DNA of 38,490 nt from Candidatus Darwinimomas equi. Its GTDB lineage: Bacteria > Bacillota > Clostridia > Lachnospirales > Lachnospiraceae. This document shows positions 7,234-30,497 of this stretch, in pieces (position 1 is the stretch's first letter; every line of letters begins with the position of its first letter). A model generated the notes under the pieces. The model did no database searches and was not told the DNA's origin. It saw only the letters and a list, made by a program, of their open reading frames with translations. The position numbers and the translations under genes were made by a program. The stretch is from assembly GCA_018066045.1 (NCBI GenBank), contig JAGHSD010000021.1, forward strand, positions 1 to 38,490, in the 5' to 3' direction.

Positions 7234-7800
7234 TTATTCCGGTACCTTGTATGAATTTGAAACAATACCTGTGCCTTCTGGCAACTGAAGAACCGAAGAT
7301 CTCAGTTCTCCCGTCAAATTAACCATTTTGCCCGGAAGTTCTATTTTGTAGTTGTTATATTTAATGGCAATAAGATACGTTGTGCCCGGTTTGTCCACAT
7401 AGGACTGTCCGTATTCTTTGATCAATCCATCTGAATTTATTTTAAATCTGTGGTATTTATCACCAATATATTGTTCGCTGCAGGATTCCCATCTGATATC
7501 TGCTATCAAATCAATTCCTGATACTCCTGATGACAAGTATTTGTATCCATCCGCATTCCCAAATTCAAATCTGTATCTGAATCTCAATACATTATTGTCA
7601 ATTACACCCACTTTGCTTGAATATGTAAATGCATAATACAGTATTCTATATCCGCCGTTCTCCTTATCAAACAGAGGTACCCATCCATATCTTGATGATG
7701 TTGTCACGCGATCAGCTCCATCATCCATCAGTAAAATACCCTCTGCATCGCTTGGACTGCCGATAAGTCCCGGTGTCCTTATTAATCCAACTCCGCCGTA
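7234..7800 (-). other. C-terminal non-repetitive domain of the giant protein
   Basis: About 190 residues without solenoid repeats, rich in aromatic residues (for example FRYRFEFGNADGYKYL). The chain ends shortly after LPEGTGIV (7267-7284), which superficially resembles a sorting motif, but no hydrophobic helix or positive tail follows. I cannot assign a family; a carbohydrate- or wall-binding domain is conceivable. Confidence 0.5.
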
Positions 7801-10800
7801 CTTATTGGCAGCACTCTTATCAACTACATGACCGGAAATAAACGTGAATGATTTACAATCAACAGTATGTCCGTTCAGGTTGAACTCGATATCAGCAGCA
7901 TTCATATAATCCGTATCCGGATGAGATATATCCTTCAGCAATATGATCTGATCTCCCGGAATTGAATCATGGAACGCATATTCAAGTTTTTCGTACTTCA
8001 TATTCGTTCTTGTATTCTCAGCTTCCGCATTAACAGGATCATTGTAAACGACTTTATGCGGATACTTCGCTCTCGTTTTCTCATCCTTGTTTTCCGTACA
8101 GATATAATCTTTATCGCAGAAATCCGTCACATGCTCTTTATAAATTCCGCCTCTGAGGACTATCCTGGCATCACTGCCGGATGCTGACAGATGTCCGTAT
8201 ACTCTTGCTCCATCACTGAATATCTCGATGAGTGCTTCATCCTCTGCCTTAATATCGCCTGCTATGTCCACGCTCGGAGTTGCCCGATTTATATGAAGCT
8301 CTGATCCATACCCTGTTACGGATATCGCCACGGATTCATCCTCGGATGCAGTTGCAATCTTACCGTTGTACATATCAAGCTTCGCATAATCACTCAGGGA
8401 AATGCTTCCGGTCAATGTGTTTCCGCCTAAATCAAGCGATATCATATCTCCGCCTATCCTATTTACAGTTACATTTTCCTCGGTATCCTTAAGCAGTGTT
8501 ACTGCTGCTATATCCATAGGACGTACTCTGTATGAATAGATATCATCAAAAGGTGCCTGAAGCGAATTGTATGTATACTCTGTACCACTCTGTAATGTAA
8601 TCTTTGCAACCGGATCTTTGGCTCCGAGAGTCCACGGATAATCGGTCTTTGTAGACTTGTCCGTGTTCTCAACCCAGTCGGGTTTCTGAGGGCTCAGAGT
8701 GATATTGTATCCTGGCTGTTTACGCTTTGTTTCAATATCATTCTTTGTATCATCATCATATATACCGCTGTTTACATGCAGTTCCGGATTCCCTGACAAT
8801 ACTTCATAAACAATCTTTTTAAAGCTGCCCTCTTCATATACAGTCTCTCCGCCACCTGATTTCAGATTAATATCCGTATATGTTCCGCGATCACAGATCA
8901 GCTTTCCGCCATTCTGCTCTACTGTAAGACCGGTGTATTTTGCTCCGTTAAAAGTAAGCTCACCGCTTGCTTCAACTATGTTCAGACTATCAGTTCCCTC
9001 GATATTTACACCATGTCCGAGCAACAGACTTCCACCTTCAATACTGAACAGTTTTCCGCTTCCTGTAATAGTAGAATATGCGTTTGAATCATTTACAATC
9101 AACGGTACTTTCTGAGAACTTACTGTAATTGCAGCATTTGTCGGACTGTTTACAGTAATGGTATGCTTGTTTAGTTCAAAATAAACATCCGTTCTTTCAT
9201 CATCTGCATTAAATTCAACCCTATCACTGTCTCCTATCGTTATATCTTTCAGCAGCCAAATATTATCCGCATCTTCATCAGCGCTGGCTTTTTCAAATGC
9301 TTCTTTAAGTGATGTATGATATGTATCGGGTCTTGCTATTCCATCTATTACCTTGTAACTCACATATGCAACCGGATCCCCGAGTGTCCACGGATACAGA
9401 TCTTTTGTTAAATCATCTGTATTTGTTACCCATCCCGGCTTCAATGGATTCAGAATGATATTGTATAATAGTGCTCTCTTGGCTTCGATATACTCCTTTG
9501 TAAAGTCATCGTATACACCTCCGTTGATAGAGCATACCGGAGAGGTATTCTGAGGTTCATAGATAATATGTGCATACTTTCCGTCTGTTAATGTAATGCT
9601 GCCTGCCGACGGCTCCAGTTTAAGAGCAGTAAATGTTCCCGACTTAAACTCAGTATAACTGCCGGGGCCGTTCTGCTCAAATATCAAATCATCTGTAATT
9701 CCTTTGATGCTGATACTGTCAGCAAGTGTCAGTTCTGCTCCGTTATCAAACAGTCTTCCGGTTCCTTCTATCTCACCGTTTTTAACAGTAATATCGATTC
9801 CCTGGCCTACCGTGATTGCAGCCCTCAGAGACTCTGCTGTCAATCCTATTGAGAGTGTATGTGTACCGAGGTCAAATGTATAATTCTTCGTTCCCGGGAT
9901 ACCGTCTAACTTTTGTGCGACAGCCTCTTCTCCTGTTACTATCTGTGCATCCTTAAGCAGAGTGATCTGATAAGTAATCTGATAAGCTGCTGCATCCGCA
10001 TTGGCTGTATCAAATGCAGCTTTAACAGATGCATGATATGTCGGATTCTTTACTGCTCCGGTCACATCCGCAAGATAGTCAACCCTTGCGACAGCACCGT
10101 CCCACTTTGCATAGAGCCAAAGTGGATTCGGGTCTGTATCAGCGATAGTGCGGGTTTCAAAAATCCACTTCTCACCCCAGTCCGGATTACCTGCAGCGTC
10201 TTTGTTTACTGTTCCGTCTTTGGTGTACCATGCATCGAAGGTAACTCCTTCTTTAGTCATGGCTGCTGGTTTTATTACTCTTTCACCGATTGAAACAGTC
10301 TGATCTTCTGGTGCAGGTGTGCCACCCTTGGCATCGAATTTAACTACTCTGCCCCTGTCGATCGTCCACGGATGAGATGCCAGACCTGATTTCTTCCAAC
10401 AGTAACCTGCGGGAAGTCCTACATTGTCAAATGCAGTCTTGGCCTTCTCTGTATAGAAGCCTCCGGTTATATTTAGTTTGTCCTCTTCTGATGCAGGCTT
10501 AGGAATATTAGTTCCACCCGAAATATAACCTCCGGTGATTCCACCGGTGATTTTACCGGTCTGCGGATTATTGACATAGACAACATTTCCGTTATCACCA
10601 CCAGCTTCTACAGTTCCTCCGCTTATACTAAATGCACCATATTGATTAAAGCTGATAACATTTGTGGCGGCTGTTATTGCTCCAGCGGTAATATTGACAC
10701 CACCGCCTTTTTGAGTCTGCGAGTCATCATTTACCTTAAAGGCAGTCTTTAATGAGTATATCGTCCCCGCACCCTTGACTGAAAGTGTAGATCCACTGTC

Positions 10801-13800
10801 AACAGTAAACACTGCAGTATCTACCAAATGTTCTGAGATATCGTAATCTGCAAGATTCAGGGTCATGTCATTTTTGACATCATATGTCCCATACGGCTGA
10901 CCTGACACCGGTTGTGCATTCAGTGAAGATATAAAATTATCCAACAGTTTCACGCTGATAGAAACATCGATATAGTCTCCGGCTATTCCGTATATCGCCT
11001 TATTCGCCTCGTCTAAAGCCTCTTTAAGAGTCTTGTAATCCTTATCGATCACGACTTTGATCGGCTGATCCACCTCGGTTTTCAGTTTGCCTTCGATCTT
11101 GAGATGAACTCTATCCTTCCAGTTTGCCTTCAGATTATAAGGCTTATTGATTACTGTGGTTTCGAAATTGAAATCTGCGTTTCCGTCCTTCCAGCTTGAC
11201 AATACATAATTCTTGTCGATCGGAGTATACTCACTTGGAACCGGCTTTCTCGCTTTTCCTCCTTCATCTATCCACTGAGCATCCGGAACTTTTGAAGTTA
11301 TCTTTTTAGCATCTGTGTTTCCTGTGTCGAATGTAACCTTATACCTGTATTCTGCGGTAAACAGAGTATCCTTACTTGCTGTATAGGACTCTCCGCCCTG
11401 ATACAGAAGATTATTGGCATCACATCTCCACCCCTTGCATTCACTTCCGTTGCCCTTATTTGGACGCGCTTCAACAGTTATGACAGTTCCCTTGGGGACA
11501 TAAAATGCCTCCGGTACCGCAGATCCACCCTTGGAATCATATTCTATCCTGACCATTTCATCTTTAGGCTTATTTCCTTTTTTGCTGTTAAACAGCAGTT
11601 CGAATAAACCAGCTGTTATTGCAACAGCTGCAATAGTACATCCGGTGATAGCCAGCGTTTTCAGACTCACCATCGTCTTTGCCTTTAATAAAGCATATGT
11701 TACTGTAACCGTAATAGCTGTACCGGCAGTGATGACAAATATCTCTTTAAGTGCTTCCAGTGATCCGTGGTTCCAGTTGATATTTCCTCTCGCACTACCC
11801 GGATCTATCGCATAGTCTCCCTCACTGACACAGGTACTGGCTTCTGAAGCGCAGTCGAATTCGTCAACGCCCTGCATCTTGATACCACAGTCTTTGCCGT
11901 TGATGGTCGAATTATTAAGTTTCAGATCGACCTTTCCTCCGGTTTCCGGAGTTCCATATTCTGCTTTAAATGAATTGATACCATCATTTGTGGTTCCGGT
12001 TATGCGACTTCCGCCCTCGACCTTCAGTGTGACTGTCTTCGCTGCTCCTGACCCTGAAGCTGACGGGTTTACGGTTATTCCTGTAGTACCGGTTACCGTA
12101 GATCCTGTCACTGTCATCGCTCCGCCATCAACGCTCAGGGCTGCAGCGGCAGCGCTTGTAACAGTAAGACCACTCAATACTACCGTTCCGTCTTTGGTCT
12201 TTACAGCTGTACCGGCATTATTGATGACTTTTCCGTTTTTGACCGTTACATCTCCGCCCGTAATCTGAACAGCGCCCGAAAGCCTGCTTGCCGGATTTGC
12301 AGTGATGGTATGTCCGCCAAGATCAAGTATCAGTTTTTTGCCGGTTATCACGATCGGCTCATATACCGTTACATTATCAAGAACTTTAACTATCTCTCCC
12401 GGTAATGCCGCATCTACTGCATCCTGAATAGAAGAGAAGCTTAACTCCTTTCCGTCCCTTACTATCTTAGCGACTCTGTCTCCCCATCTTGCATAGAGCG
12501 TCATACCGGATGTGACCGCGTCACTTCCGAAGTTCCACTTTCTTCCCCAGTCAGGTGCTCCTGTTGCAGGATCCAGCGCGCCGCTCTTTGTAAACCATCC
12601 GTCAAAAATCTTTGTATCTGAAGGCTTATGAGCAAATTGCGGTTCTTCTTCTTTTGTGATTACATGACCGTGATCATAATATCTTACAAGATCCGCCGTA
12701 GAACCGCCTTCGAAGGTTCCGCCGTTGCCCTTAAATGTAACCGCATAATTATTGATACCTACAGAATAACGATATATTGCACCCGCACCATTATCTATAA
12801 CTCCGTATCCATCGTGCAGCATTCCCATGTGGCCGATCGTCCTGCCCGGATACAGCGATGATGCATCGTTCGGAGATATGCTGAAGCTTCCTCCGGTTAT
12901 ATCTCCTGCAACACCTGTCAGTGAAGATATCTGAGTAATATCATACCTCACAGCACCCTGGAAATTACCGCCTGAGATTATGATGTCCTTGCTTGTTTCA
13001 CTGACAAACTTGACCTCCAGTGCAGAACCGCTATTGTTATTGATACTTCCGTTCTTATCGCTGCTGCTGTCAAGTATACTAATCTTTCCTGCAGACTGAA
13101 CTGCCGGAGCGCTTCTGTTTACAGTAATACTCTTACCGTTCAGATCAAGTGTTATATTTCCTGCAAATTCAAGTGTCTTTGCAGTCTGTCCTGAAAGCGG
13201 ATAGCTGTTCTCAAGCTTCAGTGTGCCGCCCGTATGCTCATACGCATATTTAACGGCCTTTTCAAGATCGTTGAATGCCAGTGTCTTTGTACCCACTGTA
13301 TATATAGCCGCCATATCTGAACTGCTGATTACCTCATAAGGATATGTACCGTCTTCAGTTCTATTCAGCCATACATATCCATCAGCAAGCTTCACAGCTG
13401 TTCCATTTACAGAAGCATATGCCTCACTGTCATACAGACCTCCTGCCAGAGTGATATTTCCGGTCTTTTCCTGAGATGCAGCTGCACTCATAGCGCCTCT
13501 GATTTTGCCTGCGATTATCTCTGCATCACCCTGTCCGACAGATATTGAACCGCCCTTGAGACCGGTATTGTTGATAAGCCCGTATGCCGTCTTATCAGCT
13601 GAATCTGTTATCGTCAGCTTTCCGGAACCTGATTTACTGATGAGACTTCCACGGGCTATAGATCCTGTCAGATTCTTACCTTTCAGATCCACAGTCAGTC
13701 CTGTCTCCAAATCAAATGCAAGCGTTTCATTTATATCGCAGTTATCCAGGAGTGTAAGAGCAGCCGTTCCCTCTGTAAATGCATTTGCTGCTGCCACCGC

Positions 13801-16800
13801 ATCAGCGATAGAATTATAATTCTTCGTTTCTCCCGCATGTTCAAGAGCTGCCACGGCATGTGACCACTTTGCAAAGAGCTCTACATCACTCTTAATCTCA
13901 TTATCAAAGCTCCACTTGGTTCCCCAGTCACCTGTCGATCTTCCGTCCTTCTCGAACCATCCCTCAAACGCCAGATCCTTAACATACGGAGTCACCTCTT
14001 TTGCCTTCTGTCCGTATTCTACGGGCTGCGGATTAACTGTCACATCCTTATTGAGCGTGTTAAATGTTACTGTAAACTTCCTGATGCTTACCTGCTTCGG
14101 ATAAGCAGTCTGCGTCTCCGTATCAGTATTGTCTGTAACTTCGTATCCTTCTTTCAAGTATCCTTCAGAACTGATTACTCCGGATATCTCTTTTTTACCC
14201 GGTGCCTCGCTGTAGATACCACCGTAGATATCACCTGCAGGCTTCTGTCCCTGCTGAACATTTTCATAAACTATGCTGCCCTGATATCTTCCTGAACCTA
14301 TGCTCAGTTTCTTTGAAGGATCGCTCATACTGATCACTATTCCTGATGATGCAGTATTGCTTAAGCTTCCTTCCGCTTCTGTTCCGTCCACTGAACCAAC
14401 TCCTGTTTTGCCGTAAACAGTGAGATTTGCTCCGACAACAGATATAAGCGGCTGTCCGGCAACACTACCACTCAGTGCATAATCGTTAAGGTCTATCTCG
14501 ACATTCTTATAAAGAACATATGATGTATTCTTCTCATAGTTATTAAGAAGTTGCAGGATTCCTTCATCCTTTGTATTTGCAAATGTTACCGCATCTTCAA
14601 ATGTTGCAAAGTATTCTGTATGTTCAATCTGTTCTCCGCCCTGGCCTTCAGTCATCCATGTATATGAAGCAACCTTATCAGCATCATGTACTACGGCATA
14701 CGGATAATCCTCGGAAGTTCTGTATATCCAGTCGGAATTCTCAGCCAGAGTGATATATGTTCCCGTACTCTTTCGGTCATATTCACCGCCATTCAAGGTG
14801 ATAGTCGCATGAGCTGTATCAAGTGAACCTGTTGAGAAAGCACCCTTGATCTTGCCTCCGTTTATCGCAACCTTTGCACTCGAATTTCTGGAGCTATCAT
14901 AATATACAGCACCTCTCCTGCCGGTTATATATCCTGATGCAATAGTCAGTGATCCGTCTGCGATGCTGATAGCATCTCCTGATTCATTGCTGTTTTCTAT
15001 ACGTCCTGTCGTGACTGTGCTGTCTTTGAGGATCAGATGTCCCTTACCCAGAATCCTAAGCAGAGCACCCTCTGTATTTCCTGTTATATCGTATCCGTTA
15101 AGATCAAGTGTAAGCTCTGCTTTCTTATCATTGAATTCACTCCATGTATGCTCTCCTGCCGGTATATCGACATTTGTCATGAGCTTCAGTACTGCATCCG
15201 GATATATTGCTTTTTCTGCCGCATCTTTTGCCGCATCTGACAGGTTTTCATACTGCTTTACTACAGTCTTGCCCTCAGCATCAGTATATGATACCTCTGC
15301 CAACGCATCTGCCCATGCTGCTCTAAGTGTCAGATTTTCTGTCACTACATCCGTATCAAAGTTCCACGGTTCATCACTCCATGTCTGCTCATCAATCTTT
15401 GCATACCATCCGCCGAGAACTTTATCCGTAAATGAAGCTTTCGGACGAATATCCTGTCCGATAGTCTTTCCATATTGAACTGTTACTGATGAAGGACCGT
15501 CAAGAGTACCGCCGTTAGCATCATATGTAACCTCATAGCTGGTTTCACTAAGTAGTACTACCCTATATGGATATGCATTCTTAGTAGTTGCATCCGTATT
15601 GTCAGCAACACCATATTCCGGATTGATAAATGTCTTTTCCGGCTTATCACTGTAGATACCACCTTTGATTGCACCGGTATATCCATCAGCTATTCCGCCT
15701 GCTCCCTCATATGAAAGCTTACCCTTTATCTCTCCGCCTGATATCTCAAGCTTCATACAGTTATTCCAGAATCCTGCTGCTATTCCATCAGTGCCTGCTA
15801 TGATTCCGTCAGCGGGGGCAGTTATAGAACCGCTGATCATCTTGATGCCGTCGTAGTTGAAATCTGACCATATTGCATTGTATCCTTCGATTGCAACACC
15901 ATCTATGATAAGTGTATCATCCTTTACAGTTTCATCTCCAAACAGTGCAACTGCATATGAATTACCGGATGTACTGTTGTTGATGATTCTTCCTCTTGCG
16001 GTATCACCCGTTGAAGAATCTGTGATCTTAAGACTCGTTCCGTCTACCCTGATTACACAGTCTGTCAGGCTTCCTGAGATATTCCGTCCATTAAGATCAA
16101 GCGTGATATTCTTATCTATAACAATTGTTGACGCTGCCTCTACAGTCTTATAAAGTGTTACTGTATCTGTATCTGCATCTGATGCTGACGCGAGAGCTGC
16201 AGTCAGACTCGTATAGTATTCCGGCCTGGTCAGTCTTGTTGATATGATACTTGCTTCTGCCTCATCCCACTTAGCGTGGAGAGTTATTTCTGCAGTTACG
16301 ATATCTTTTTCAAAGTTCCACTTTTCTCCCCAGTTTCCTGATGTTGTTCCGTCCTCCTTGAACCATCCGCTGAATACCCATCCTTCAGCATAAGGTTTCT
16401 GTGGCTCAACAACCTTGGCACCATATTCTATTGTCTGTGGCTCAACTGTTACACCGTCTTTATGGGTGTGGAATGTTACCGTATACGTATTGGTGGTCCA
16501 CTTAGCATACAGAGTTGTATCCTTTGTTATGGTATCTCTTTCGAAGTTCCACGGTTCTCCCCAGTTTCCTGATTCAGTTCCATCTTCTTTGAACCATCCG
16601 TCAAAGGTATATCCTTTTTCTGTCGGATCTTCCGGCTTTACGACTTTGCCGCCGTTAGCCACATACTGAACATCATAATAAGTGTCTCCATGTCCGTTCA
16701 GTTCAAACTCAACTCTGAAGGCCTGTCCTACCGTGTATGGATAGGCTATCTTTGTAGCTTCATCTTTATTATCCAGAACACCATAGCCTTCCGCCATATA

Positions 16801-22800: not shown

Positions 22801-25800
22801 TGATTTCAAAAGATCTTTATCATCCCATGTATTGTATCTAAATTTTCCCCCGGATATCTTGAACTCTCCCTGTTCATGTTCACCCGGTGTCGGACGGCTT
22901 GCCCTGTCAATCCACCACTTACCTGATTTTATCTCCGTTTTATATTTTGTAATTCCGAGATATCCCTTGACATTTGCACCATCAAATATGATTGTGCCGC
23001 CTTTACTTCCGGAAGGTGGATAGACTGTTCCGAAGTTACGAATTGAGCCGCCTTCAATACTGCTTATTATTATAAGTGTTGTATTTTCTGCTACGGAATA
23101 TTTAGAATCCGTATCTGAGCAGTTAATAGCTTTACCGTTCAGGTCCAGGGTTATCGTTCCACCATCTGCACAGTTTGCAGCAACTGTTTCACTCAGATTC
23201 ACATCCTTGCAGAGCGTTACAGTCTTTGTAGTATGAACATCGCTAAAAGCCGTACCTATCGTACGGTAATATATACCTGCGTCTTCTTCTTTTTCATATA
23301 TGCAATGTTCTTTCGGAAATTTTGCTTCACAGTCTGCTTCTGAAAGCGTCGCAACAGACCAAGGATATTCTGAATTACCGATATTCCTGATAATGCCTTT
23401 ACCGGAAGCAATAGTAATCCTGCGGACTGTACCTTTTCCGTTATTATCTTTCCATTCAAAGTCCGGATTAAGATTAAAGCTGCCGCCACGGATCTCTAAA
23501 TCGACATGTATATAATCTTTAAAACCGGTAGGATCTTCTCCTCTGAATCTCCAGTCAGCAAGAGATGGATAATATCCTCCATCGATGACAGCTTTTCCCT
23601 TAATATTCTGGTTTTGAGGAAGTGAAGATGCTATATAGCGGATGTTATGAGTACCGCCATGAATATATAATTCAGACGGATTCGGATCCGCATGCTCATC
23701 AGTCCAAAAGATTGCAACTGAATATGCATCCAGATTCACATTGTCAAATGAGAGTTTTCCACCTTCATATATTCTGAAAAGAGTATTCCCGTCTCTTTCA
23801 CTTGAATCCTGAACTACATTACCATTGATCATGGATACTGATGCCCTGACAGGAAGATCATAGTATACATTGACTACTGCTTTCAGCTGATGATTATCCA
23901 GATTAAGCGTAATACTCTTTCCAAATTCCGAACTGTTATCGATGTTTGCATCCTTGCGGAGAGTAATTACATCTCCATCTTCAAGAAGACTGCTTGATAA
24001 TGCATTCTTCAATGTATCGATGTAATAATCAATTTTCTCACTTACATCGTACAGGATAGCTTCTCCGTCTATTTCTGTTACAGGAAGGACTATGTACGGA
24101 TAATCTTCTCCCGTAACCTTCACTCCATACCCTTCTGCAACGTATTCCTTCTTAGGAGCATTCTTGAACAATCCTCCTGTAATGCTTATTGTAGCTAATT
24201 GGGTCCTGCTAAAGACTGCATCGTATTTTCCACCTGTAATTGTGAGCACTCCTGAAGCTGCATGAATTGTTCCGGAGAAAGTGATTTTCTCGGATTCATT
24301 GGATATTACAGCATCTTTAAGTACAGTAAGTGTTGTTCCCGGTGTAGCTTCTTTTACTGCATCTATTACAGAGAGGTAATATATACCTCCGTCTTCTTCT
24401 TTTTCGTATATACAATGTTCCTTCGGAAGTTTTGCTTCACAGTCTGGTGTCGGACCTACACTATACTGATAATCGCCTGTTCCGGTCTGATCATCAGCCC
24501 AATTCTTTATAATGCTGTTTCTATTTCCGATAGTGATAAAGCTCTGGTCAGGTGAGAGGTTGAAGTTGCCGGCATTAATAACGGTATCAATATGTCTGTC
24601 TGAAGGCGAACGGGTTCCTTCCCAGCTGCCTATCGTAAAATCACCGCCGTTAATAGTTGCCTGATAATTATTATGAATCGCATCATTATCGAACAGCCAG
24701 CTTGTCAGGTTGAACTTTCCGCCGTTTATTACAAGTGTCTTTCCTGTGCCGGAATTGTTTGCAGCAATCAGCGTATGTGCGGTTATTGTATAGTCGTTCG
24801 AATTGTTTATAACAAGACCGCAATTATTAAGGTTTCCTGTCAGGCAAATCGGACTATATCCCCTGACATTGACATTATTCAGCGTAATAATATTTCTGCG
24901 TGTATCAAATCCCTGGAACTGGAACATTGAGTCTTGTTTATTATCAACATCATAAACAGCAGAATTGACAGTTCCGTTTTTTATTATCAGATAATCTTTG
25001 ACGGTTATATTTCCACTCTCATGAACAAGAAGAGTCTTGCCATTCAAGTCAAGTGTGATATCTTTTGTAAATTGTGCCTTCTCTGTTCCGGGAATATCAC
25101 CGTTTGATATAGTGATTCCATCCCTAAGCAGATGAACTGTATCATTATTATCAGCAGCACTGATTGCCTGAGTTAAAGTACAGTAATACTGTTCTTCTCC
25201 GGATTGCTTCTTTACATAAGCCTCAATATCATCCAGTTTTTTTACAGTATATTTATATATGCCTTCATCAATATTAACCCGTTTATATCCATCCGGGATA
25301 CACTCTGAATCAGGAGCCTCAGAGAAGAATCCTCCGGTAATGCTTATTCCGGCTGTCTCATCTTCACCGGTTGAAAGAACAGAATTATACCATCCGCCGG
25401 TTATGTTTACACTTCCTCCGTCTTCTGTCGAAAATGTCAGATTGCTGTATTTTCCGGCGCTGATATTTATTACAGCATCTGAGCCTTTTGCTTTCAATTT
25501 TCCACCCAGTTTTCCATTTCCGGATGTCTCAAGTGTTACATTCGCAGAAATCTCGACTGAATTATCTGTAACCTCCTGAAGGATACGTATAGTATCCCCG
25601 GATTCCGCATGTTCTGCTGCTGTGCTTACAGCCTCGGCTGCAATATCTTTATTCTTTGATGTATTTACTAATTCGGCCTTTGCCCTGGCTGCTGAATATA
25701 CTGTATACGGGTATTCTGCTGCGGTATTATCATCAGGATTAAAAAATACGCGATACTGTCTTTCTGAGTATTCTCTTTTGGTGTATTCGTAATAGCGATA

Positions 25801-28800
25801 CAGATAATTATCTCTTATCCTGTTGGTAAACATGCCTCCTTGTATTCTATAATACAGGTTCGCGTTTACGGGATAGTCTTTGTACTCGATATTTCCTTTT
25901 ATTTTTGGTATGTATGATCCGGAATCAGCTATGTTTATCTCAGCAGAAGGCGAATTAAACAATATTGCATACCCGTCAGCATTGTCTGCCAGAACAGAAA
26001 CAGCTGCACGAGCCTCATTGATAAAGACATCTGATTCATAAAGATATATCGCATTTGCTCCTTCAATGATTCCGCCGTAAATACGCATTTTTACATAAGA
26101 GCCTGATGTCGAGTAAATTGCATAGGAATTACCGGATGTCGATTTATTCCATATCTTTCCTGTTCCGGTTGAATCAGATATGTTGACATGCAGCATATTA
26201 AATGTCAGCAATCCTCCGTTATCAAATTGTCCGGATAAAGTATGTCCATTCAGGTTCAAAGAGATGGTAGTGTATGCAGGTACCCTGTTAAAATCAAGAT
26301 GCTTACCGTTTTCAAGCGTAATATCCTTTAGCAGTCTGAGCTCATCACCGCCACTCATGTCATTAACAGCATCTGATATCGAAGTATATTCTATTGTGGT
26401 ACTTCCCCTTATAATGCTGACTTCAGCCGTACCTACCATCCAAGGAAAATCTGTTTTTGTAGCAGCATCGGTATTGGATATAAAACTAAGTCCACTGTCC
26501 AGGGAATCTGCGAAAGAATTACGGGAGGTATTATCAAACAATCCTGCTTTTACGGTTATTCTGTCTTTTCCCTCTGAAACGGTTATATTCTTATATGATC
26601 CGCTTACTATATCAAGATGTCCGGATTCGGATACCTTGATATTTCCGTTGGCAAAAACGAATGATCCGAAATCGAAAGTAATGCTTTCCTTAACTTCTGC
26701 TTTTTCTTCAGCATCATATACCGATTTAAAAAGGCTGATCGTCTGATTAGAACCTGCATCTGATACCGCATCTTTTAAAGAAACGTAATATGTGTTTTTC
26801 TGTTTATTATAAGCCGCTGCATTTTCACTGATTCTCTTTACAGCATACGGGAATTCCTTATATGTACTGTCAAGGAACACTGCAAAACCCGGTTCCAGAT
26901 TATTCTTTGGTGGGTCTGCATAATAACCTCCGGATATATTTATAGAACTATTTGATTCATCAGTATTAAGCATTTTCCCGCTAATTCTGATGTTCGAGTC
27001 TTCCGGTATGATAAGAGTTCCGGATTTTTCAACAGCTATAGCTCCCGGCGCAGCCCCGTATATCGTTCCGGATTCAAGCGTAATCTTTGCTCCCTCTACT
27101 CCAAGTGCATATTCACCCTCAGTTGCTCTTAGCGAGTAGTTTCCCAGCGAAAGTATATATTCATTATTTATCCCGTTTTCTTTACGGAATACAACATGGT
27201 CTGTTACATCTTTCAGCAGTTCAATGGTTGCTCCATTATATTCAGATGATGCGTTCATCAACTTAGCAGCGGTCTGAAGATCTTCGAAGTAGCTTACCGT
27301 TCCTCCTGCGCTTGTCACCTTTACAGTAACAGGAACTATCTTATAATATTCATCATCCGATTTAACCGCCTTGTATCCTTCAGCCAGATACTTTTCAACC
27401 CGCTCGCTTTTGAAGTAACCTGCAGTAATTTTCACATCTCCGGTTCCGGTAATATTCCCATCAAAATATGCCTTAGCATTAGACAATACCGCTTCTCCGG
27501 AGATGGCGATACCACCTGTCACCTTTACTGGCATCTCGTTATTTATGAACAGCTTCGATCCGTCAGCTACAGTGATGCTGCCGTCGAGTATTCCATCTGT
27601 AAGATGCAGTTTTGTGTTACCGGAAATCACAAGGTTTTTTTTGATTGTTTTTCCGTAAAGATCTATGGAAAAGTCTTTTCCATTATCTGCATTTATTGAT
27701 TCTTCACCTAATGCATTTGTAACGATAACTACTATATCTCCGTCAGATGCCGTCGCAATCATGGCAGGAAGTGTTCCGTAGTCTTTTACTCCGTGAATCT
27801 CATCTGCAAGGACAGCCTCATTTCCTTCCGCGCTGGTTACAGTCCAATAGTCACCTTCCTTAATTGCCATATAACCGGGTGCAATATATTCAGGAGATAT
27901 CTCTTTTGCAAACTGTCCTCCGCTTATCTCAATAGAACCGTTACTTTCTGACAATGTTACCGATAATCCGTATGTCCCTCCGCTTATAGAGATTTTTGCT
28001 CCGTCCTTTGCTGAAATGCTGCCGGATTCCATGTTTATTGCAGGGATAATAACATCAGTCGAATCGCCTGATGCTACTAAACTGCCATTTAAATCTCCGT
28101 TCATGAATTTTGCGTTTCCGGATGTTGCAGTTACAGTCCCGGAAAGTGTCTTTCTATTCAGATCAACGGATACGGTTTTAGCTATTGGGAAATCTCCCGA
28201 TAGATCCTTCTGAAGACTGATCAAATCACCTTCTGCTGCTAAATCAATCGCTGCTTCAAGTGAATGATACTCCAGTCCTGTGTACATGTTCTTTACAGCT
28301 GCTTTGGATGCCGGTTCAACAGTGTAAATTATATTGTCGCTTTCATCTCTGCTTTCAAACGGAGCATTTTCACTATCTTTTACCATCCATGGTTTAAGTT
28401 TATCTGTATATGTTCCGCTGCTTAACCTCCAATAAAAGATATCCTCTGCCGGATATATCAGCTTTCCGTCTATCAGAATATTATTTCCGTTGACATAAAA
28501 GTTTGACGGAAGCGTCGTTTCGTTAAGAGCATATCCTCCCTCTGCTGCAAGCAAATTTACTTTTGAATTACCGGAAGTTGAAATATAAAAATCAACTGCA
28601 TCATTAAAAATTACATTTCGTCCCGTATATGTTCCACCTGCCAATGTACACTGACACCAGCGAATCCGTCCATCTCTGAAGGTCACGACATTGGATGCCG
28701 GCGAAAGTGATGTGTTTTCTATCCTTCCTGAAGAATCCTCAGAGCTGTCTTTTATTGTGACATTTACTCCTTCAAATTTAATCACCGGCTTATCCGGAAG

Positions 28801-30426
28801 TTCTCCCTTTATCTCATATCCCTTAAGGTCAAGGTAAACGGTTCTGTGGTCACTTCTCCATTTGCCTTGAGAATCATCTCGATTTTTTATCATAGCAGCA
28901 GTATCGGTCAGTATGATATTGGTGCTGATTTCTATGGTTTCTCCCGGCTGTACTGCATCAAGCGCTTCCTGAAGAGATGCATAATCCCTGCTGCCTATAT
29001 GTGCAACGAAATTGTTGCGGGTAATAGAGATCTCAACAATATGCTTTTCTCCTCTTTCGTCGGTATATTGTACTGTCAGTTTTCCGGATATGAAATTTTC
29101 ACCGACTGTATAGGTTGTATCTGCTCCGCTTCCCGAACTGCTCACAGCCGTACCGCCCGGATTAATATCTGTTAAACTCGACCGTACATCGGTTATTCCT
29201 GAAGGATCTGTTATATTCATTTCCTTTAGGACATCTTTTACAGAAAAACTGTTTCCACTTATCGAATATTTTATGTTACTTAAACTAAACTCAATTACAT
29301 ATGCGGAAAAACTGTCTGTGATAACAGAAAATTCAACCGGTAATGCATCACTCTGTTCTGTATTGTCATCTTTTGGAATATTTACCACAGCCGTCTCGGC
29401 TTTTGCAGAGGCATCTTCCGACGGCTCAACTACTTCAAGCTCTTCTGCCACATACGGAGTATCTATTAACCAGGTATCTTCTTCTGCCTCAGCTATACCT
29501 TCTGCAGCAGAATAATCCGATAACAACGCATCGAATTTTTCTGTTGCTTTTTGAATGTCTTTTTTGCCTGCCTTCTGATTTACATCATCGAACACCTCTC
29601 CGTCGGGGAATTCTAACTCTGATTCTATTCCTTCGGCTTCTGCCTTTTCGATCTTCTCAGCAATTTTTGTCAGTTTTTCTATACTGTCTTCTGCATGGAA
29701 TACACGTATCCCTGTCAGGTTGGCAACAGCTTCCGTAAGAGTGAATTTTATCTCCACTTCACCGTCAGGCTCGATCTCATTACCGTCTTCATCCAGTATG
29801 GTGATATCCAATATGTTTCTCTTTGTAGAAAGCTCTGATGTAAATGCGGAGGCATCAGCATTTTTCTCTGAATCACTTGCTGTTACGCTCGGGTTCGAAG
29901 TGCTATCTATATCTGTGGCAACAGGCACTCCTGCAGGCTGTGCGCCCGTTTCATCCTCGGTTCCGTCAATTATTTTTGTATTGTCAACTGCAGCTTCTAT
30001 ATCTTCGTATGTTGTTGATTCTGTTGCTATTTTTTCTACAACTACTTTTGCCGTTGCAGGAAGTACCCCTGCTTTTGCTTTTACCGTGACCACTATTCCG
30101 TCAACAGGATCTGAGCATGCTATGAAATCCTGTTCACTTTCAGCGAACCCGGTATCGTTTTCTGAGGCAATATCCGTTAATACGTTTTTTATATCTGTTG
30201 CAGTCTCCGCTGATACACTTTTGTCCTGTGCCGCGTCTTCTGTGCCGAGCGCAATATCTTTTTCGACTAATATTTCTTTTTCCGGAAGGATATCCTCAAT
30301 CATGCTTCCGAAGCTGTCTTTCGCCGTCACTTCCGATTCCGCAAAGCTCGTCATCGGTGATAAAAGCGCCATGGTAACTGCAAGAACCAACGCTATTGTT
30401 TTTTTGTAATGTGTTAAAAACTGCAT
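7234..30426 (-). CDS. Giant secreted surface protein with beta-solenoid modules and InlB-type repeats
   Basis: One uninterrupted frame of about 7,730 codons. Residues 1-31 are a signal peptide ending SFA|ES. I prefer the ATG at 30426 over that at 30432 because AAGAGAT is 2 bases from the earlier ATG but well spaced for the later one. Layout: an acidic N-terminal domain (to about residue 475), then about 29 modules with the pattern Y.SL.DA...GDT..LLKD......LDLNGKTL.G....I.GG.F (to about 7,540), typical of right-handed beta-solenoid adhesins. Mixed among them are 15 InlB B-repeat/Flg_new-like units (GY.F.GWF....WNF.TD.V....TLYAKW) between about residues 2,566 and 6,780. Two hydrophobic segments lie at 6,230-6,283. 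A C-terminal domain of about 190 residues ends without LPXTG, membrane helix or basic tail. Expected role: a very long adhesin or matrix protein; the ligand is unknown. Gene length, no frame break and sequence identity between modules argue for a functional gene. Confidence 0.92.
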   Translation of the reverse strand: MQFLTHYKKTIALVLAVTMALLSPMTSFAESEVTAKDSFGSMIEDILPEKEILVEKDIALGTEDAAQDKSVSAETATDIKNVLTDIASENDTGFAESEQDFIACSDPVDGIVVTVKAKAGVLPATAKVVVEKIATESTTYEDIEAAVDNTKIIDGTEDETGAQPAGVPVATDIDSTSNPSVTASDSEKNADASAFTSELSTKRNILDITILDEDGNEIEPDGEVEIKFTLTEAVANLTGIRVFHAEDSIEKLTKIAEKIEKAEAEGIESELEFPDGEVFDDVNQKAGKKDIQKATEKFDALLSDYSAAEGIAEAEEDTWLIDTPYVAEELEVVEPSEDASAKAETAVVNIPKDDNTEQSDALPVEFSVITDSFSAYVIEFSLSNIKYSISGNSFSVKDVLKEMNITDPSGITDVRSSLTDINPGGTAVSSSGSGADTTYTVGENFISGKLTVQYTDERGEKHIVEISITRNNFVAHIGSRDYASLQEALDAVQPGETIEISTNIILTDTAAMIKNRDDSQGKWRSDHRTVYLDLKGYEIKGELPDKPVIKFEGVNVTIKDSSEDSSGRIENTSLSPASNVVTFRDGRIRWCQCTLAGGTYTGRNVIFNDAVDFYISTSGNSKVNLLAAEGGYALNETTLPSNFYVNGNNILIDGKLIYPAEDIFYWRLSSGTYTDKLKPWMVKDSENAPFESRDESDNIIYTVEPASKAAVKNMYTGLEYHSLEAAIDLAAEGDLISLQKDLSGDFPIAKTVSVDLNRKTLSGTVTATSGNAKFMNGDLNGSLVASGDSTDVIIPAINMESGSISAKDGAKISISGGTYGLSVTLSESNGSIEISGGQFAKEISPEYIAPGYMAIKEGDYWTVTSAEGNEAVLADEIHGVKDYGTLPAMIATASDGDIVVIVTNALGEESINADNGKDFSIDLYGKTIKKNLVISGNTKLHLTDGILDGSITVADGSKLFINNEMPVKVTGGIAISGEAVLSNAKAYFDGNITGTGDVKITAGYFKSERVEKYLAEGYKAVKSDDEYYKIVPVTVKVTSAGGTVSYFEDLQTAAKLMNASSEYNGATIELLKDVTDHVVFRKENGINNEYILSLGNYSLRATEGEYALGVEGAKITLESGTIYGAAPGAIAVEKSGTLIIPEDSNIRISGKMLNTDESNSSINISGGYYADPPKNNLEPGFAVFLDSTYKEFPYAVKRISENAAAYNKQKNTYYVSLKDAVSDAGSNQTISLFKSVYDAEEKAEVKESITFDFGSFVFANGNIKVSESGHLDIVSGSYKNITVSEGKDRITVKAGLFDNTSRNSFADSLDSGLSFISNTDAATKTDFPWMVGTAEVSIIRGSTTIEYTSISDAVNDMSGGDELRLLKDITLENGKHLDFNRVPAYTTISLNLNGHTLSGQFDNGGLLTFNMLHVNISDSTGTGKIWNKSTSGNSYAIYSTSGSYVKMRIYGGIIEGANAIYLYESDVFINEARAAVSVLADNADGYAILFNSPSAEINIADSGSYIPKIKGNIEYKDYPVNANLYYRIQGGMFTNRIRDNYLYRYYEYTKREYSERQYRVFFNPDDNTAAEYPYTVYSAARAKAELVNTSKNKDIAAEAVSTAAEHAESGDTIRILQEVTDNSVEISANVTLETSGNGKLGGKLKAKGSDAVINISAGKYSNLTFSTEDGGSVNITGGWYNSVLSTGEDETAGISITGGFFSEAPDSECIPDGYKRVNIDEGIYKYTVKKLDDIEAYVKKQSGEEQYYCTLTQAISAADNNDTVHLLRDGITISNGDIPGTEKAQFTKDITLDLNGKTLLVHESGNITVKDYLIIKNGTVNSAVYDVDNKQDSMFQFQGFDTRRNIITLNNVNVRGYSPICLTGNLNNCGLVINNSNDYTITAHTLIAANNSGTGKTLVINGGKFNLTSWLFDNDAIHNNYQATINGGDFTIGSWEGTRSPSDRHIDTVINAGNFNLSPDQSFITIGNRNSIIKNWADDQTGTGDYQYSVGPTPDCEAKLPKEHCIYEKEEDGGIYYLSVIDAVKEATPGTTLTVLKDAVISNESEKITFSGTIHAASGVLTITGGKYDAVFSRTQLATISITGGLFKNAPKKEYVAEGYGVKVTGEDYPYIVLPVTEIDGEAILYDVSEKIDYYIDTLKNALSSSLLEDGDVITLRKDANIDNSSEFGKSITLNLDNHQLKAVVNVYYDLPVRASVSMINGNVVQDSSERDGNTLFRIYEGGKLSFDNVNLDAYSVAIFWTDEHADPNPSELYIHGGTHNIRYIASSLPQNQNIKGKAVIDGGYYPSLADWRFRGEDPTGFKDYIHVDLEIRGGSFNLNPDFEWKDNNGKGTVRRITIASGKGIIRNIGNSEYPWSVATLSEADCEAKFPKEHCIYEKEEDAGIYYRTIGTAFSDVHTTKTVTLCKDVNLSETVAANCADGGTITLDLNGKAINCSDTDSKYSVAENTTLIIISSIEGGSIRNFGTVYPPSGSKGGTIIFDGANVKGYLGITKYKTEIKSGKWWIDRASRPTPGEHEQGEFKISGGKFRYNTWDDKDLLKSGCYFFNNPDDDKNDYPYLVDQGYTVSFVLNGHGGEIAPVTARAGYTFAAPATPSDVSHSFEGWFTENGASSGNWGDQWDFDTDKVTKNTTLYAKWTIKKYTVSFDMQGHGAQIASQSVEHGGKITKPADPTAEGYLFDGWFTKDGTGSDWGEKWNFEENTVTADITLHAKWTEAEASLKKQGESTAVYFASLSDAMDVAGDGSTVTLLKNITIPAGNLLWKRSSSIAVTFDLNGKTITGNYAGPLLDIENIKLSIIDSSAAGSGESAGTIENKSDSSSAYVLRLMNQNGWIPLKISAGNYIGYNGIEFKYYDIDLSNLNITAQGNALKDTQNIVEDIAISSGKFKGSIIVGNSFEGNYGKITGGLFTHKLDSRLYAGNSATHRQFRSGDADYPYTVDKKENAAAENYSDTDKNIEGLGYYSLSRAVSDASANAKIRVLKPVTSDTEVSRSDIEITGDIEVKDSALLEIKAGKYDGVLSKAESARINITGGLFKIAPNASHIADGYGVQNNPDTASDYKYTIVKIAESEAYVEKSGTDVKIYYASLSDALDNVTGIIPRDTVVLLKDLTVRKEGYDKDGTAVHEAIKFSKNVILDLNGKTLIIGGQRDAGNRERIGDIPVSSIVEIKNGNITTTMSAKDESGKYPYAFSMFQLQNGAQISFASVSIAGYCPVDFSSDLTALTGVAFRNSNVDACSLVSGQITDRNRAKLEVEGGTYELESWFFTHYPRHTNITRNIISGQFKLGEWGTPAGSTSYGTTTVLSADFNLDPDDARITIADGSSIVKNYPDNHDSEYAPYQYTVGSAEECEAYVPGAVPADNPKNNIYYRTIGAALNDVHETRTVTLCKDVILEESVTVSCSDAGKTITLDLNGKKLTSSDKQTISVAEDTTLNITSSNENGTFTNFTTGNSAGGKIIFENVNVEGSVRLLDCETEIISGKWKISTMSLPSIESGKLRISGGKFNTRLSEGCLATGCYFFDNPYADRNDYPYLVDKGYTVSFVLNGHGGEIAPVKARAGYTFAAPATPSDVSYSFDGWFKESGCENRWNFDTDTVKSNMTLYAKWTIKKYTASFDMHGHGAQIASQSVAHGGNITKPADPTAEGYLFDGWFTKDGTGSDWGEKWNFEENTVTADITLHAKWTEAEAYRINNGSVEKIYFASLSEAVNKASDGSTVYVLKDGIVVGGDSATGEQLNLDKTFTIDLNGKTLVSRFPTVHGEGKTITIQNGTVSSADENNKTALFWLNAYNTSLVLNNVNTYGDRIAALSCDKDVLTINGGFHKGHTIISANGNGSNQKLSISSGDFELDTWMYDDDNTHNNYTADVTGGNFKLGSWKGKSSADSNCKININGGNYNLSPDQTFATIKTGKGIIRNVKDAVYPWSVDNISICVASVPNISRVNNDTIYYRTIRDALADADRTETITLLDAVSLEDSVYIGDEESHRYTVTIDLAGHTFTTTTSGTIGTIGTIGTIGTIGIASGSVAKFDNSSASRATIENLYMDTFGSGRVEFAESIDFAGALDLNNHRAVITGGRWNISEMGANPKLSIIGGKFNKDYSEYLAEGTQARFYENTDEDKKTYPFIVDERYYTVSFDLQGHGEPQPATLSVIPMATISTPSAVSEEGYEFGGWFREPECANRWNFDTDPVESDMTLYAKWAKKNYNVYFNMNGHGEQIDTQSVPYGEMAKQPETPQEEGYTFGGWFKDRSFDNAWNFTTDPVKSNMTLHAKWDQNKYEVSFDMHEHGAQIASQSVAHGGKIAEPPIPSEIGYLFDGWFKEDGTKSGSWGDQWSFENDTVTAAVTLHAKWSEAAAVVIDSQNTTYYRTAEEAFAAAQNGDTVKLLKPFEVTEALTVNHSITLDLNGQTLSGNDDRYIIAVENAGFTVTDTSISKEGKIENTSTDPASYAVILTADDETNEYAFTMTGGTISGYNGVVSDWNYHTLNISGGYISASGIEYSTSLSWWNSVVSLNISDGYFKGSVEYAGAGSMTNHGNITGGYYSDKSARSYMAEGYGVLDNKDEATKIAYPYTVGQAFRVEFELNGHGDTYYDVQYVANGGKVVKPEDPTEKGYTFDGWFKEDGTESGNWGEPWNFERDTITKDTTLYAKWTTNTYTVTFHTHKDGVTVEPQTIEYGAKVVEPQKPYAEGWVFSGWFKEDGTTSGNWGEKWNFEKDIVTAEITLHAKWDEAEASIISTRLTRPEYYTSLTAALASASDADTDTVTLYKTVEAASTIVIDKNITLDLNGRNISGSLTDCVIRVDGTSLKITDSSTGDTARGRIINNSTSGNSYAVALFGDETVKDDTLIIDGVAIEGYNAIWSDFNYDGIKMISGSITAPADGIIAGTDGIAAGFWNNCMKLEISGGEIKGKLSYEGAGGIADGYTGAIKGGIYSDKPEKTFINPEYGVADNTDATTKNAYPYRVVLLSETSYEVTYDANGGTLDGPSSVTVQYGKTIGQDIRPKASFTDKVLGGWYAKIDEQTWSDEPWNFDTDVVTENLTLRAAWADALAEVSYTDAEGKTVVKQYENLSDAAKDAAEKAIYPDAVLKLMTNVDIPAGEHTWSEFNDKKAELTLDLNGYDITGNTEGALLRILGKGHLILKDSTVTTGRIENSNESGDAISIADGSLTIASGYITGRRGAVYYDSSRNSSAKVAINGGKIKGAFSTGSLDTAHATITLNGGEYDRKSTGTYITLAENSDWIYRTSEDYPYAVVHDADKVASYTWMTEGQGGEQIEHTEYFATFEDAVTFANTKDEGILQLLNNYEKNTSYVLYKNVEIDLNDYALSGSVAGQPLISVVGANLTVYGKTGVGSVDGTEAEGSLSNTASSGIVISMSDPSKKLSIGSGRYQGSIVYENVQQGQKPAGDIYGGIYSEAPGKKEISGVISSEGYLKEGYEVTDNTDTETQTAYPKQVSIRKFTVTFNTLNKDVTVNPQPVEYGQKAKEVTPYVKDLAFEGWFEKDGRSTGDWGTKWSFDNEIKSDVELFAKWSHAVAALEHAGETKNYNSIADAVAAANAFTEGTAALTLLDNCDINETLAFDLETGLTVDLKGKNLTGSIARGSLISKSGSGKLTITDSADKTAYGLINNTGLKGGSISVGQGDAEIIAGKIRGAMSAAASQEKTGNITLAGGLYDSEAYASVNGTAVKLADGYVWLNRTEDGTYPYEVISSSDMAAIYTVGTKTLAFNDLEKAVKYAYEHTGGTLKLENSYPLSGQTAKTLEFAGNITLDLNGKSITVNRSAPAVQSAGKISILDSSSDKNGSINNNSGSALEVKFVSETSKDIIISGGNFQGAVRYDITQISSLTGVAGDITGGSFSISPNDASSLYPGRTIGHMGMLHDGYGVIDNGAGAIYRYSVGINNYAVTFKGNGGTFEGGSTADLVRYYDHGHVITKEEEPQFAHKPSDTKIFDGWFTKSGALDPATGAPDWGRKWNFGSDAVTSGMTLYARWGDRVAKIVRDGKELSFSSIQDAVDAALPGEIVKVLDNVTVYEPIVITGKKLILDLGGHTITANPASRLSGAVQITGGDVTVKNGKVINNAGTAVKTKDGTVVLSGLTVTSAAAAALSVDGGAMTVTGSTVTGTTGITVNPSASGSGAAKTVTLKVEGGSRITGTTNDGINSFKAEYGTPETGGKVDLKLNNSTINGKDCGIKMQGVDEFDCASEASTCVSEGDYAIDPGSARGNINWNHGSLEALKEIFVITAGTAITVTVTYALLKAKTMVSLKTLAITGCTIAAVAITAGLFELLFNSKKGNKPKDEMVRIEYDSKGGSAVPEAFYVPKGTVITVEARPNKGNGSECKGWRCDANNLLYQGGESYTASKDTLFTAEYRYKVTFDTGNTDAKKITSKVPDAQWIDEGGKARKPVPSEYTPIDKNYVLSSWKDGNADFNFETTVINKPYNLKANWKDRVHLKIEGKLKTEVDQPIKVVIDKDYKTLKEALDEANKAIYGIAGDYIDVSISVKLLDNFISSLNAQPVSGQPYGTYDVKNDMTLNLADYDISEHLVDTAVFTVDSGSTLSVKGAGTIYSLKTAFKVNDDSQTQKGGGVNITAGAITAATNVISFNQYGAFSISGGTVEAGGDNGNVVYVNNPQTGKITGGITGGYISGGTNIPKPASEEDKLNITGGFYTEKAKTAFDNVGLPAGYCWKKSGLASHPWTIDRGRVVKFDAKGGTPAPEDQTVSIGERVIKPAAMTKEGVTFDAWYTKDGTVNKDAAGNPDWGEKWIFETRTIADTDPNPLWLYAKWDGAVARVDYLADVTGAVKNPTYHASVKAAFDTANADAAAYQITYQITLLKDAQIVTGEEAVAQKLDGIPGTKNYTFDLGTHTLSIGLTAESLRAAITVGQGIDITVKNGEIEGTGRLFDNGAELTLADSISIKGITDDLIFEQNGPGSYTEFKSGTFTALKLEPSAGSITLTDGKYAHIIYEPQNTSPVCSINGGVYDDFTKEYIEAKRALLYNIILNPLKPGWVTNTDDLTKDLYPWTLGDPVAYVSYKVIDGIARPDTYHTSLKEAFEKASADEDADNIWLLKDITIGDSDRVEFNADDERTDVYFELNKHTITVNSPTNAAITVSSQKVPLIVNDSNAYSTITGSGKLFSIEGGSLLLGHGVNIEGTDSLNIVEASGELTFNGAKYTGLTVEQNGGKLICDRGTYTDINLKSGGGETVYEEGSFKKIVYEVLSGNPELHVNSGIYDDDTKNDIETKRKQPGYNITLSPQKPDWVENTDKSTKTDYPWTLGAKDPVAKITLQSGTEYTYNSLQAPFDDIYSYRVRPMDIAAVTLLKDTEENVTVNRIGGDMISLDLGGNTLTGSISLSDYAKLDMYNGKIATASEDESVAISVTGYGSELHINRATPSVDIAGDIKAEDEALIEIFSDGARVYGHLSASGSDARIVLRGGIYKEHVTDFCDKDYICTENKDEKTRAKYPHKVVYNDPVNAEAENTRTNMKYEKLEYAFHDSIPGDQIILLKDISHPDTDYMNAADIEFNLNGHTVDCKSFTFISGHVVDKSAANKYGGVGLIRTPGLIGSPSDAEGILLMDDGADRVTTSSRYGWVPLFDKENGGYRILYYAFTYSSKVGVIDNNVLRFRYRFEFGNADGYKYLSSGVSGIDLIADIRWESCSEQYIGDKYHRFKINSDGLIKEYGQSYVDKPGTTYLIAIKYNNYKIELPGKMVNLTGELRSSVLQLPEGTGIVSNSYKVPE
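10085..10350 (-). repeat. InlB/Flg_new-like repeat (last of 15)
   Basis: Pattern VKFDAKGG...F.AWYTKDG...WGEKW.FE....LYAKW, with an insertion relative to the other units. Confidence 0.8.
10555..10569 (-). other. Internal NPQTG pentapeptide in the giant protein
   Basis: An NPQTG sequence occurs in a solenoid module. It resembles a class B sortase motif but lies more than 1,100 residues from the C-terminus with no following membrane segment, so it is most likely a chance match. Confidence 0.3.
11110..11555 (-). repeat. Two divergent InlB/Flg_new-like repeats after the membrane hairpin
   Basis: Two units, the first IEYDSKGG...GWRCD...FTAEYR and the second VTFDTGN...SSWKD...NLKANWK. Both are more diverged from the consensus than the upstream copies. 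Confidence 0.65.
11585..11745 (-). other. Two hydrophobic segments inside the giant protein (putative membrane hairpin)
   Basis: Residues about 6,230-6,283 contain IFVITAGTAITVTVTYALL, a short basic connector (KAKTMVSLK), then LAITGCTIAAVAITAGLFEL followed by NSKKGNKPK. Each hydrophobic run is about 19-22 residues, long enough to cross the membrane. They separate a 6,200-residue N-terminal arm from a 1,450-residue C-terminal arm. No similar segment is seen elsewhere in the mature protein. Confidence 0.7.
12475..12755 (-). repeat. InlB/Flg_new-like repeat
   Basis: Unit VTFKGNGGTFEGG...FDGWFTKSG...WGRKWNFGSDAVTSGMTLYARW. Confidence 0.85.
13850..14085 (-). repeat. InlB/Flg_new-like repeat
   Basis: Unit VTFNTLNKDVTV...FEGWFEKDG...WGTKWSFDN...ELFAKW. 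Confidence 0.85.
15300..15540 (-). repeat. InlB/Flg_new-like repeat
   Basis: Unit VTYDANGGTLDGP...LGGWYAKID...EPWNFDTDVVTENLTLRAAW. Confidence 0.85.
16255..16718 (-). repeat. Two tandem InlB/Flg_new-like repeats
   Basis: Units VEFELNGHGD...FDGWFKEDG...TLYAKW and VTFHTHKDGV...FSGWFKEDG...TLHAKW. Confidence 0.9.
17388..18055 (-). repeat. Three tandem InlB/Flg_new-like repeats
   Basis: Units opening VSFDLQGHG, VYFNMNGHG and VSFDMHEHG, each ending TLYAKW or TLHAKW. This is the longest run of such units in the protein. Confidence 0.9.
18385..18429 (-). repeat. Five perfect 9-bp tandem repeats encoding Thr-Ile-Gly
   Basis: The plus-strand unit acctatagt occurs five times without mismatch, giving five TIG tripeptides at about residues 4,002-4,016 of the giant protein. 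The unit is itself nearly palindromic. Copy-number change by slippage would keep the frame. Confidence 0.95.
19383..19825 (-). repeat. Two tandem InlB/Flg_new-like repeats, near-identical DNA to 22283-22735
   Basis: Units VSFVLNGHGGEIAP...AKW and ASFDMHGHGAQIAS...TLHAKW. Roughly 250 bp from 19381 match the stretch from 22279 with about ten mismatches by eye, and a further block of about 125 bp near the far end is also nearly identical. Confidence 0.9.
22283..22735 (-). repeat. Two tandem InlB/Flg_new-like repeats (first in the protein)
   Basis: Units VSFVLNGHGGEIAP...TLYAKW and VSFDMQGHGAQIAS...TLHAKW. They are the closest match to the pair at 19383-19825, which points to recent duplication or gene conversion. 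Confidence 0.9.
29005..30333 (-). other. Acidic N-terminal domain of the giant protein
   Basis: About 445 residues following the signal peptide. They include a VVVTVKAKAGVLPATAKVVVE strand pair and an ITILDEDGNEIEPDGEVEIKFTL segment, which I recall from the N-termini of other large Clostridia surface proteins (ZU5-like or Ig-like beta domain; uncertain). Between and after these are Glu/Ala/Asp-rich, probably flexible or helical stretches. Confidence 0.5.
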
Positions 30427-30497
30427 GCTCATATCTCTTAAATATCTTCAAGCAACAAATCCTGGCACGAATAATTTCTCCGTACATATATCCTTTT

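Follow-up and report, generated by a model that had tools for sequence, protein, structure and literature searches.

The window analyzed here is an entire contig of 38 kb (38,490 nucleotides) of Candidatus Darwinimomas equi, from an assembly of 1.44 Mb that is divided into 167 contigs and is 80.9% complete. A single stop-free frame on the minus strand, running from 30432 to 7234, encodes a protein of 7,732 residues with an acidic composition and a computed mass of 835 kDa and pI of 4.7. The probability that a stop-free run of this length arises by chance at the given base composition is approximately 1e-197. The frame and its product agree with an earlier note on this DNA, which had proposed a single intact 23.2-kb gene for a protein of about 7,730 residues and 0.8 MDa. 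The frame of that note stands; however, the note places the start at 30426, which is the second ATG and third codon of the frame, and the first ATG is located at 30432. Judged by eye, neither ATG is preceded by a strong ribosome-binding site. The giant gene and its parts are organized as follows:

7234–30432, minus strand: giant gene, an open frame of 7,732 codons and a stop, with dN lower than dS between modules
30334–30432, minus strand: signal peptide region (residues 1–33), with a hydropathy maximum of 1.96 at residues 10–33
28993–30333, minus strand: acidic N-terminal non-repeat region (residues 34–480), with no family match
22738–28992, minus strand: solenoid units 1–11 (residues 481–2565), identified with the self-built profile
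12487–22734, minus strand: mixed array of solenoid units 12–23 alternating with InlB repeats 1–12 (residues 2567–5982)
19376–22802, minus strand: recent internal duplication inside a super-module, 19376–19889 versus 22274–22802, with a period of 2.9 kb
11899–12468, minus strand: solenoid unit 24 (residues 5989–6178), without the usual terminal YPYxV segment
11584–11745, minus strand: hydrophobic hairpin (residues 6230–6283) of two transmembrane-like segments, identified from hydropathy
7834–11553, minus strand: post-hairpin modules, InlB repeats 13–15 and solenoid units 25–29 (residues 6294–7533)
7237–7833, minus strand: C-terminal non-repeat region (residues 7534–7732), with no anchor motif and no homologue found

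Two kinds of modules, 29 solenoid units and 15 InlB/Flg_new repeats, constitute 87% of the chain. The 32 hits of a solenoid profile built from the protein itself were merged into 28 full units and one partial unit at the C-end, because three units had each been split in two; a self-built profile also identified the InlB repeats, and both counts equal those of the earlier note. That note had called for a Pfam profile search, in which the family Flg_new (PF09479) scored 175.8 and 312.8 bits in the two halves of the protein, far above the curated cut-off of 27. In a scan of the whole genome, Flg_new was found in 12 places. The InlB repeats match the solved InlB B-repeat chains 2y5p and 1m9s by sequence. 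Matches of the giant to NCBIfam neuraminidase and internalin models were set aside, since nothing but B-repeats or Flg_new repeats is covered by them and their scores are far below the cut-off.

In a tree of the solenoid units, units 11, 15, and 17 form one group, units 8, 14, 16, and 10 a second, and units 7, 9, and 13 a third. The recurrence of unit types in order points to the duplication of super-modules of several units. The tree is poorly supported, with 5 of 65 branches starred; it therefore served to identify the super-module pattern, and no dating was drawn from it. The two copies of the recent duplication share 91–94% DNA identity, which means that they have already diverged by 6–9%. 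Within unit 17, an exact 9-bp tandem repeat of 5.1 copies (18384–18429) codes for TIG repeats, and its copy number could vary with the frame kept.

Pairs of modules for which dS was computable have dN/dS of approximately 0.2–0.4. Since dN is lower than dS in duplicated module pairs, the protein sequence has been under selection across the duplications. Exact direct repeats in the contig reach at most 83 bp, and the contig contains no exact inverted repeats of 20 bp or longer; a collapsed or chained assembly is therefore unlikely, as judged from the assembled sequence rather than from reads. It is very improbable that the gene is an assembly artefact or in decay. Such an origin would fit the fragmentation of the assembly and the position of the gene on a 38-kb contig; however, 7,732 codons without a stop, the shortness of the exact repeats, and dN below dS in the module pairs tested argue against it, as does the collinearity of both flanks with the genome of a sister species. 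Moreover, an assembly error is likelier to collapse such repeats than to invent them.

The structure of the solenoid unit has been predicted with AlphaFold2, with 22 aligned units of the giant itself as input. The earlier note had proposed that module windows be modeled; the predicted unit is a parallel β-helix with a pLDDT of 88.9. Structural re-alignment of the model (VIA) gave Z-scores of 16.0 for a PL6 alginate lyase, approximately 13 for pectin methylesterases, 12.4 for the serine-rich repeat protein (SRRP) adhesin of Limosilactobacillus reuteri, and 11.9 for the adhesin PfbA. Of the 189 re-aligned chains, 110 have a Z-score of at least 8, and the top ones are β-helix proteins. The PL6 lyase, pectin methylesterase, SRRP, and PfbA structures are right-handed parallel β-helices, and the same fold is predicted for the solenoid unit on the basis of the model and its re-alignment. 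A Foldseek search with the model returned no match below an E-value of 0.001, and a PDB sequence search returned none for the solenoid profile. If the units were stacked end to end, the chain would be about 0.15–0.2 µm long, which is a very rough estimate from the usual rise of a β-helix.

The best structural matches of the unit, polysaccharide lyases and pectin methylesterases, are what would be expected if some of the units were active polysaccharide lyases or hydrolases and the giant acted as a fibrillar enzyme instead of serving as a passive adhesin. The existence of fibrillar enzymes on stalks of Flg_new has been proposed (PMC9210967). However, the only near-invariant columns among the 22 units are structural, a leucine and a few alanines and glycines, and none is polar. 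Therefore, the units probably share no catalytic center, although individual units could be active as enzymes. The giant matches no Pfam enzyme-family profile, and its NCBIfam neuraminidase match is to Flg_new repeats only. An array of enzymes is thus quite unlikely.

The N-terminus of the giant resembles a signal peptide, as the earlier note had claimed, with a hydropathy maximum on the Kyte–Doolittle (KD) scale of 1.96 at residues 10–33, and is probably cleaved after TSFA. The N-terminal region that follows has no homologue in the genus, only weak matches in the family, and no match in a PDB sequence search. The C-end has no homologue in any of 98 relatives. The giant contains no sorting signal; its P-x-T-G strings (DPATG, TPETG, and NPQTG) are all internal, and the C-terminus has neither a sortase-type motif nor a terminal hydrophobic stretch. 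No known adhesive domain was found with Pfam or NCBIfam, and it is possible that the giant contains one of a kind that has yet to be described.

The giant gene is flanked by the following features:

4287–33706, no strand assigned: 29.4-kb stretch absent from the sister species (genome G300), with the S10 operon leader on one side and gpsA on the other
6365–7219, minus strand: 284-residue protein that starts 14 bases past the giant's stop, with one N-terminal transmembrane-like segment, AEKET repeats, and no family match
30498–30526, minus strand: promoter-like site ATGAAA-17-TATAAT, the second hexamer preceded by TG; a consensus match only
30503–30548, minus strand: 19-pair inverted repeat that overlaps the promoter-like site upstream of the giant, with z of −6.9 for a 191-nucleotide stretch
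30603–31709, minus strand: 368-residue protein, the upstream neighbor of the giant, with an N-terminal hydrophobic segment and no family
31709–32200, minus strand: signal peptidase I-like protein (archaeal/SipW-like), TIGR02228 with E of 1.2e-10, below the cut-off, and Peptidase_S24 over the cut-off
32160–33044, minus strand: 294-residue surface protein with a C-terminal SPKTG sorting signal, TIGR01167 over the cut-off
33041–33700, minus strand: class B sortase, TIGR03064 with E of 8.5e-32, below the equivalog cut-off, and Pfam Sortase over the cut-off

Promoter-like sites are no more numerous in the region than in shuffled sequences, and the inverted repeat may be an operator or a terminator.

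The 29.4-kb stretch corresponds to 58 bp in G300, the genome of which is 98% complete. The sequences on its two sides are collinear with G300 at identities of 91–92% (2499–4286) and 75% (33707–34694). In addition to the giant, the stretch encodes an ABC transporter, a small open reading frame, the 284-residue protein, the 368-residue orphan, the signal peptidase I-like protein, the SPKTG protein, and sortase B. Exopolysaccharide genes (LCP, CpsB-like, and CpsD-like) are located near the giant. In the third genome of the genus, other polysaccharide genes adjoin S10, and a search of the two congeners returned neither the modules nor the N-end of the giant. The neighboring sortase was considered as a means of anchoring the giant and rejected, since the giant lacks a motif whereas the adjacent 294-residue protein carries SPKTG, a motif cleaved by Clostridioides difficile SrtB (PMC4155245).

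Several other elements of the window can be described. G300 encodes a sortase B and an SPQTG protein in a separate exopolysaccharide locus; both this pair and the sortase B/SPKTG pair described here agree with C. difficile SrtB, which is known to be specific for (S/P)PXTG. The small open reading frame of 62 residues (MRSNTEKKEYVHPEATFVEF..., 6127–6315, minus strand) is preceded by an 11-of-12 promoter match (6353–6324) and followed by a strong hairpin (6114–6088); it adjoins the ABC transporter (4327–6099), and it may encode a small peptide that this transporter exports. An S10-Clostridia ribosomal protein leader (RF03136, 4095–4192, minus strand), which scores above the gathering threshold, lies just inside the collinear flank. 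The best match of gpsA (33697–34701) in the genome collection is from Streptococcus (55%), ahead of Lachnospiraceae (about 44%), which in a pattern-based search is only a lead for horizontal transfer. A protein of the choline/glucan-binding-repeat type with a signal peptide (34765–35838) is also found near gpsA in G300, at 70% DNA identity.

Within the family, 55 of the 200 genera sampled have a match to the profile of the solenoid unit. The corresponding figures are 68 of 295 genomes for the order and 35 of 398 for the phylum; these samples overlap and include the host genome. The largest other open frame with the unit encodes 5,302 residues, and the giant is the largest β-helix surface protein of this kind seen here. 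An end anchor is recognizable in 12 of 35 related open frames that were inspected. As about two-thirds are without one, a few of these being cut by the ends of the fetched stretch, the missing anchor of the giant is not unusual in its class. The related protein L086 (G521:C310, 3164–7833) is spread over three adjacent frames, possibly owing to frameshifts or assembly errors. The earlier note had called the gene the standout object in the window, which is true of its size but not of its kind, since the solenoid module is common in the family. The gene encodes a genuine, very large, modular, and probably exported β-helix/InlB-repeat protein of a kind already known; what is unusual is how large it is, the hairpin within its chain, and its location on an island. 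The earlier note does not mention the hairpin, the island with its sortase and signal peptidase-like genes, or the wide occurrence of the module in the family.

The hairpin is positioned exactly between unit 24, which lacks its last usual segment, and InlB repeat 13. Its 54 residues, from about residue 6228, have a mean KD value of 1.38, which no other stretch of the mature chain equals; the next best reaches 0.77. Shuffled sequences attain the 54-residue hydrophobicity in 1.35% of cases. It is possible, although tentative, that the two segments are inserted in the membrane and tether the giant, with arms of 6,200 and 1,450 residues that both extend outward. The peak hydrophobicity and its rarity among shuffles, the location of the hairpin at a module boundary in place of the end of unit 24, and the lack of any other anchor found in the giant argue for such a tether. 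Furthermore, the array goes on beyond the hairpin with modules of the same kinds, so both sides should be outside. By contrast, a single 19-residue window as hydrophobic as that of the hairpin is ordinary in shuffles, and the positive charges after the second segment disfavor an outside C-terminal arm. The AlphaFold model of the region is uninformative, with a mean pLDDT of 42.6 and about 25 at the hairpin. None of the 35 related open frames has paired hydrophobic segments deep inside its array; one of them (L074) has such a pair about 150–210 residues before its end. A tether of this kind refines the explanation of the giant as an exported fibre and does not exclude it.

The same stretch may instead be a buried segment, or the scar of a gene fusion, in which loss of a stop codon joined the C-terminal membrane anchor of one surface protein to another surface protein that began with its signal peptide at Met 6256. 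The residues KAK after the first segment and MVSLK at the opening of the second are as in an anchor and a signal peptide, and the two InlB repeats directly after the hairpin are the most divergent. However, the post-hairpin units form no separate group in the weakly supported unit tree, and none of the genomes searched yielded an unfused pair, which leaves the fusion doubtful. A phage origin was also considered and rejected: the unit tested has no counterpart in any phage record, and the PHROGs collection gave one marginal match, in the hairpin segment, to an entry of unknown function (E of 0.007).

Giant surface proteins are a recognized group among huge bacterial proteins (PMC11573180). The closest in kind are the clostridial β-helix/Flg_new surface proteins of the same family and order, which share the solenoid unit by profile, are often encoded by long frames, often have a signal-peptide-like N-terminus, and sometimes contain InlB repeats. 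The inspected relatives have 1–10 recognizable units, whereas the giant has 29, together with 15 InlB repeats and the internal hairpin. Giant1–5 of Apilactobacillus kunkeei have a signal peptide, 3,000–8,000 residues, and a β-solenoid domain (PMC12863079). They resemble the giant in being very large exported chains, as is predicted here, from a genome of about 1.5 Mb. However, in Giant1–3 an N-terminal β-solenoid is positioned atop mainly α-helical repeats (PMC12863079), whereas β-helix units occur throughout the giant, and the A. kunkeei proteins end in a C-terminal DUF5776, for which the giant has no Pfam match. Because of these ends and α-helical repeats, the giant was not placed with them. 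The β-helix binding region of L. reuteri SRRP resembles the unit model, as reflected in its Z-score; unlike SRRP, the giant has no serine-rich repeats (8.4% serine), no LPXTG motif, and many helix units instead of one, and neither SecA2 nor SecY2 is among the identified genes of the window. The giant has the InlB B-repeat in common with the Listeria internalin InlB; unlike internalins, it has no leucine-rich repeats in Pfam, and its NCBIfam internalin matches are far below the cut-off. Fibrillar adhesins (PMC9210967) share with the giant their great length and repeated stalk domains, including Flg_new. The giant differs from them in having no recognized adhesive domain and no recognized anchor, for which the hairpin is only a candidate. 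The best reading is that the giant would work like a fibrillar adhesin, with incomplete membership in that group.

We consider it probable, at roughly 0.6, that the giant is a very large Sec-exported chain that forms a fibre or mesh and binds carbohydrate or surfaces for attachment or as a biofilm matrix. The intact frame, modular make-up, predicted unit fold, selection on the protein sequence, and island with surface-assembly genes are the results on which this proposal builds. The chain would be exported by the Sec pathway, and its β-helix blocks, joined by InlB (β-grasp) linkers, would extend outside the cell as a long fibre or a mesh. The many faces of the helices may bind carbohydrate or other surfaces and so serve in attachment or in a biofilm matrix. 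The giant would be retained by its internal hydrophobic hairpin or by non-covalent binding rather than by the neighboring sortase. The signal peptide and acidic composition are consistent with such a fibre, as are the modules over 87% of the chain, the alignment of the unit model with β-helix lyases and adhesins, the apparent lack of a shared catalytic center, the dN/dS of about 0.2–0.4, and the nearby exopolysaccharide genes and sortase set. Fibrillar proteins use Flg_new in their stalks (PMC9210967), and a link between this domain and surface proteins associated with the gut has been drawn (PMC9723798). The absence of a known adhesive domain, sorting signal, or other recognized anchor, the orphan N- and C-terminal regions, and the lack of a Foldseek match below an E-value of 0.001 count against the exported fibre. 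A major extracellular structure, as the earlier note had put it, is plausible, but one without a known adhesive domain or a terminal wall anchor.

A more specific arrangement, in which an interior membrane hairpin carries β-helix arms of 6,200 and 1,450 residues and an island that can be exchanged encodes the protein together with a peptidase and a sortase, is unlikely; if true, anchoring of a fibre by an interior hairpin would differ from that of end-anchored fibrillar adhesins.

The solenoid unit occurs in 55 of the 200 genera of the family sampled, yet no Pfam model recognizes it; therefore, the clostridial surface proteins that contain it, a large class, are largely unannotated. The giant gene by itself provides 28 full paralogous units, which is enough for a confident prediction of their fold. 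If the giant is expressed, its size and its lack of a terminal anchor directly raise the question of what keeps very long fibres attached to monoderm cells. The gene is cleanly present in C. Darwinimomas equi and absent from its sister species, and the two provide a natural comparison for the function of the giant.
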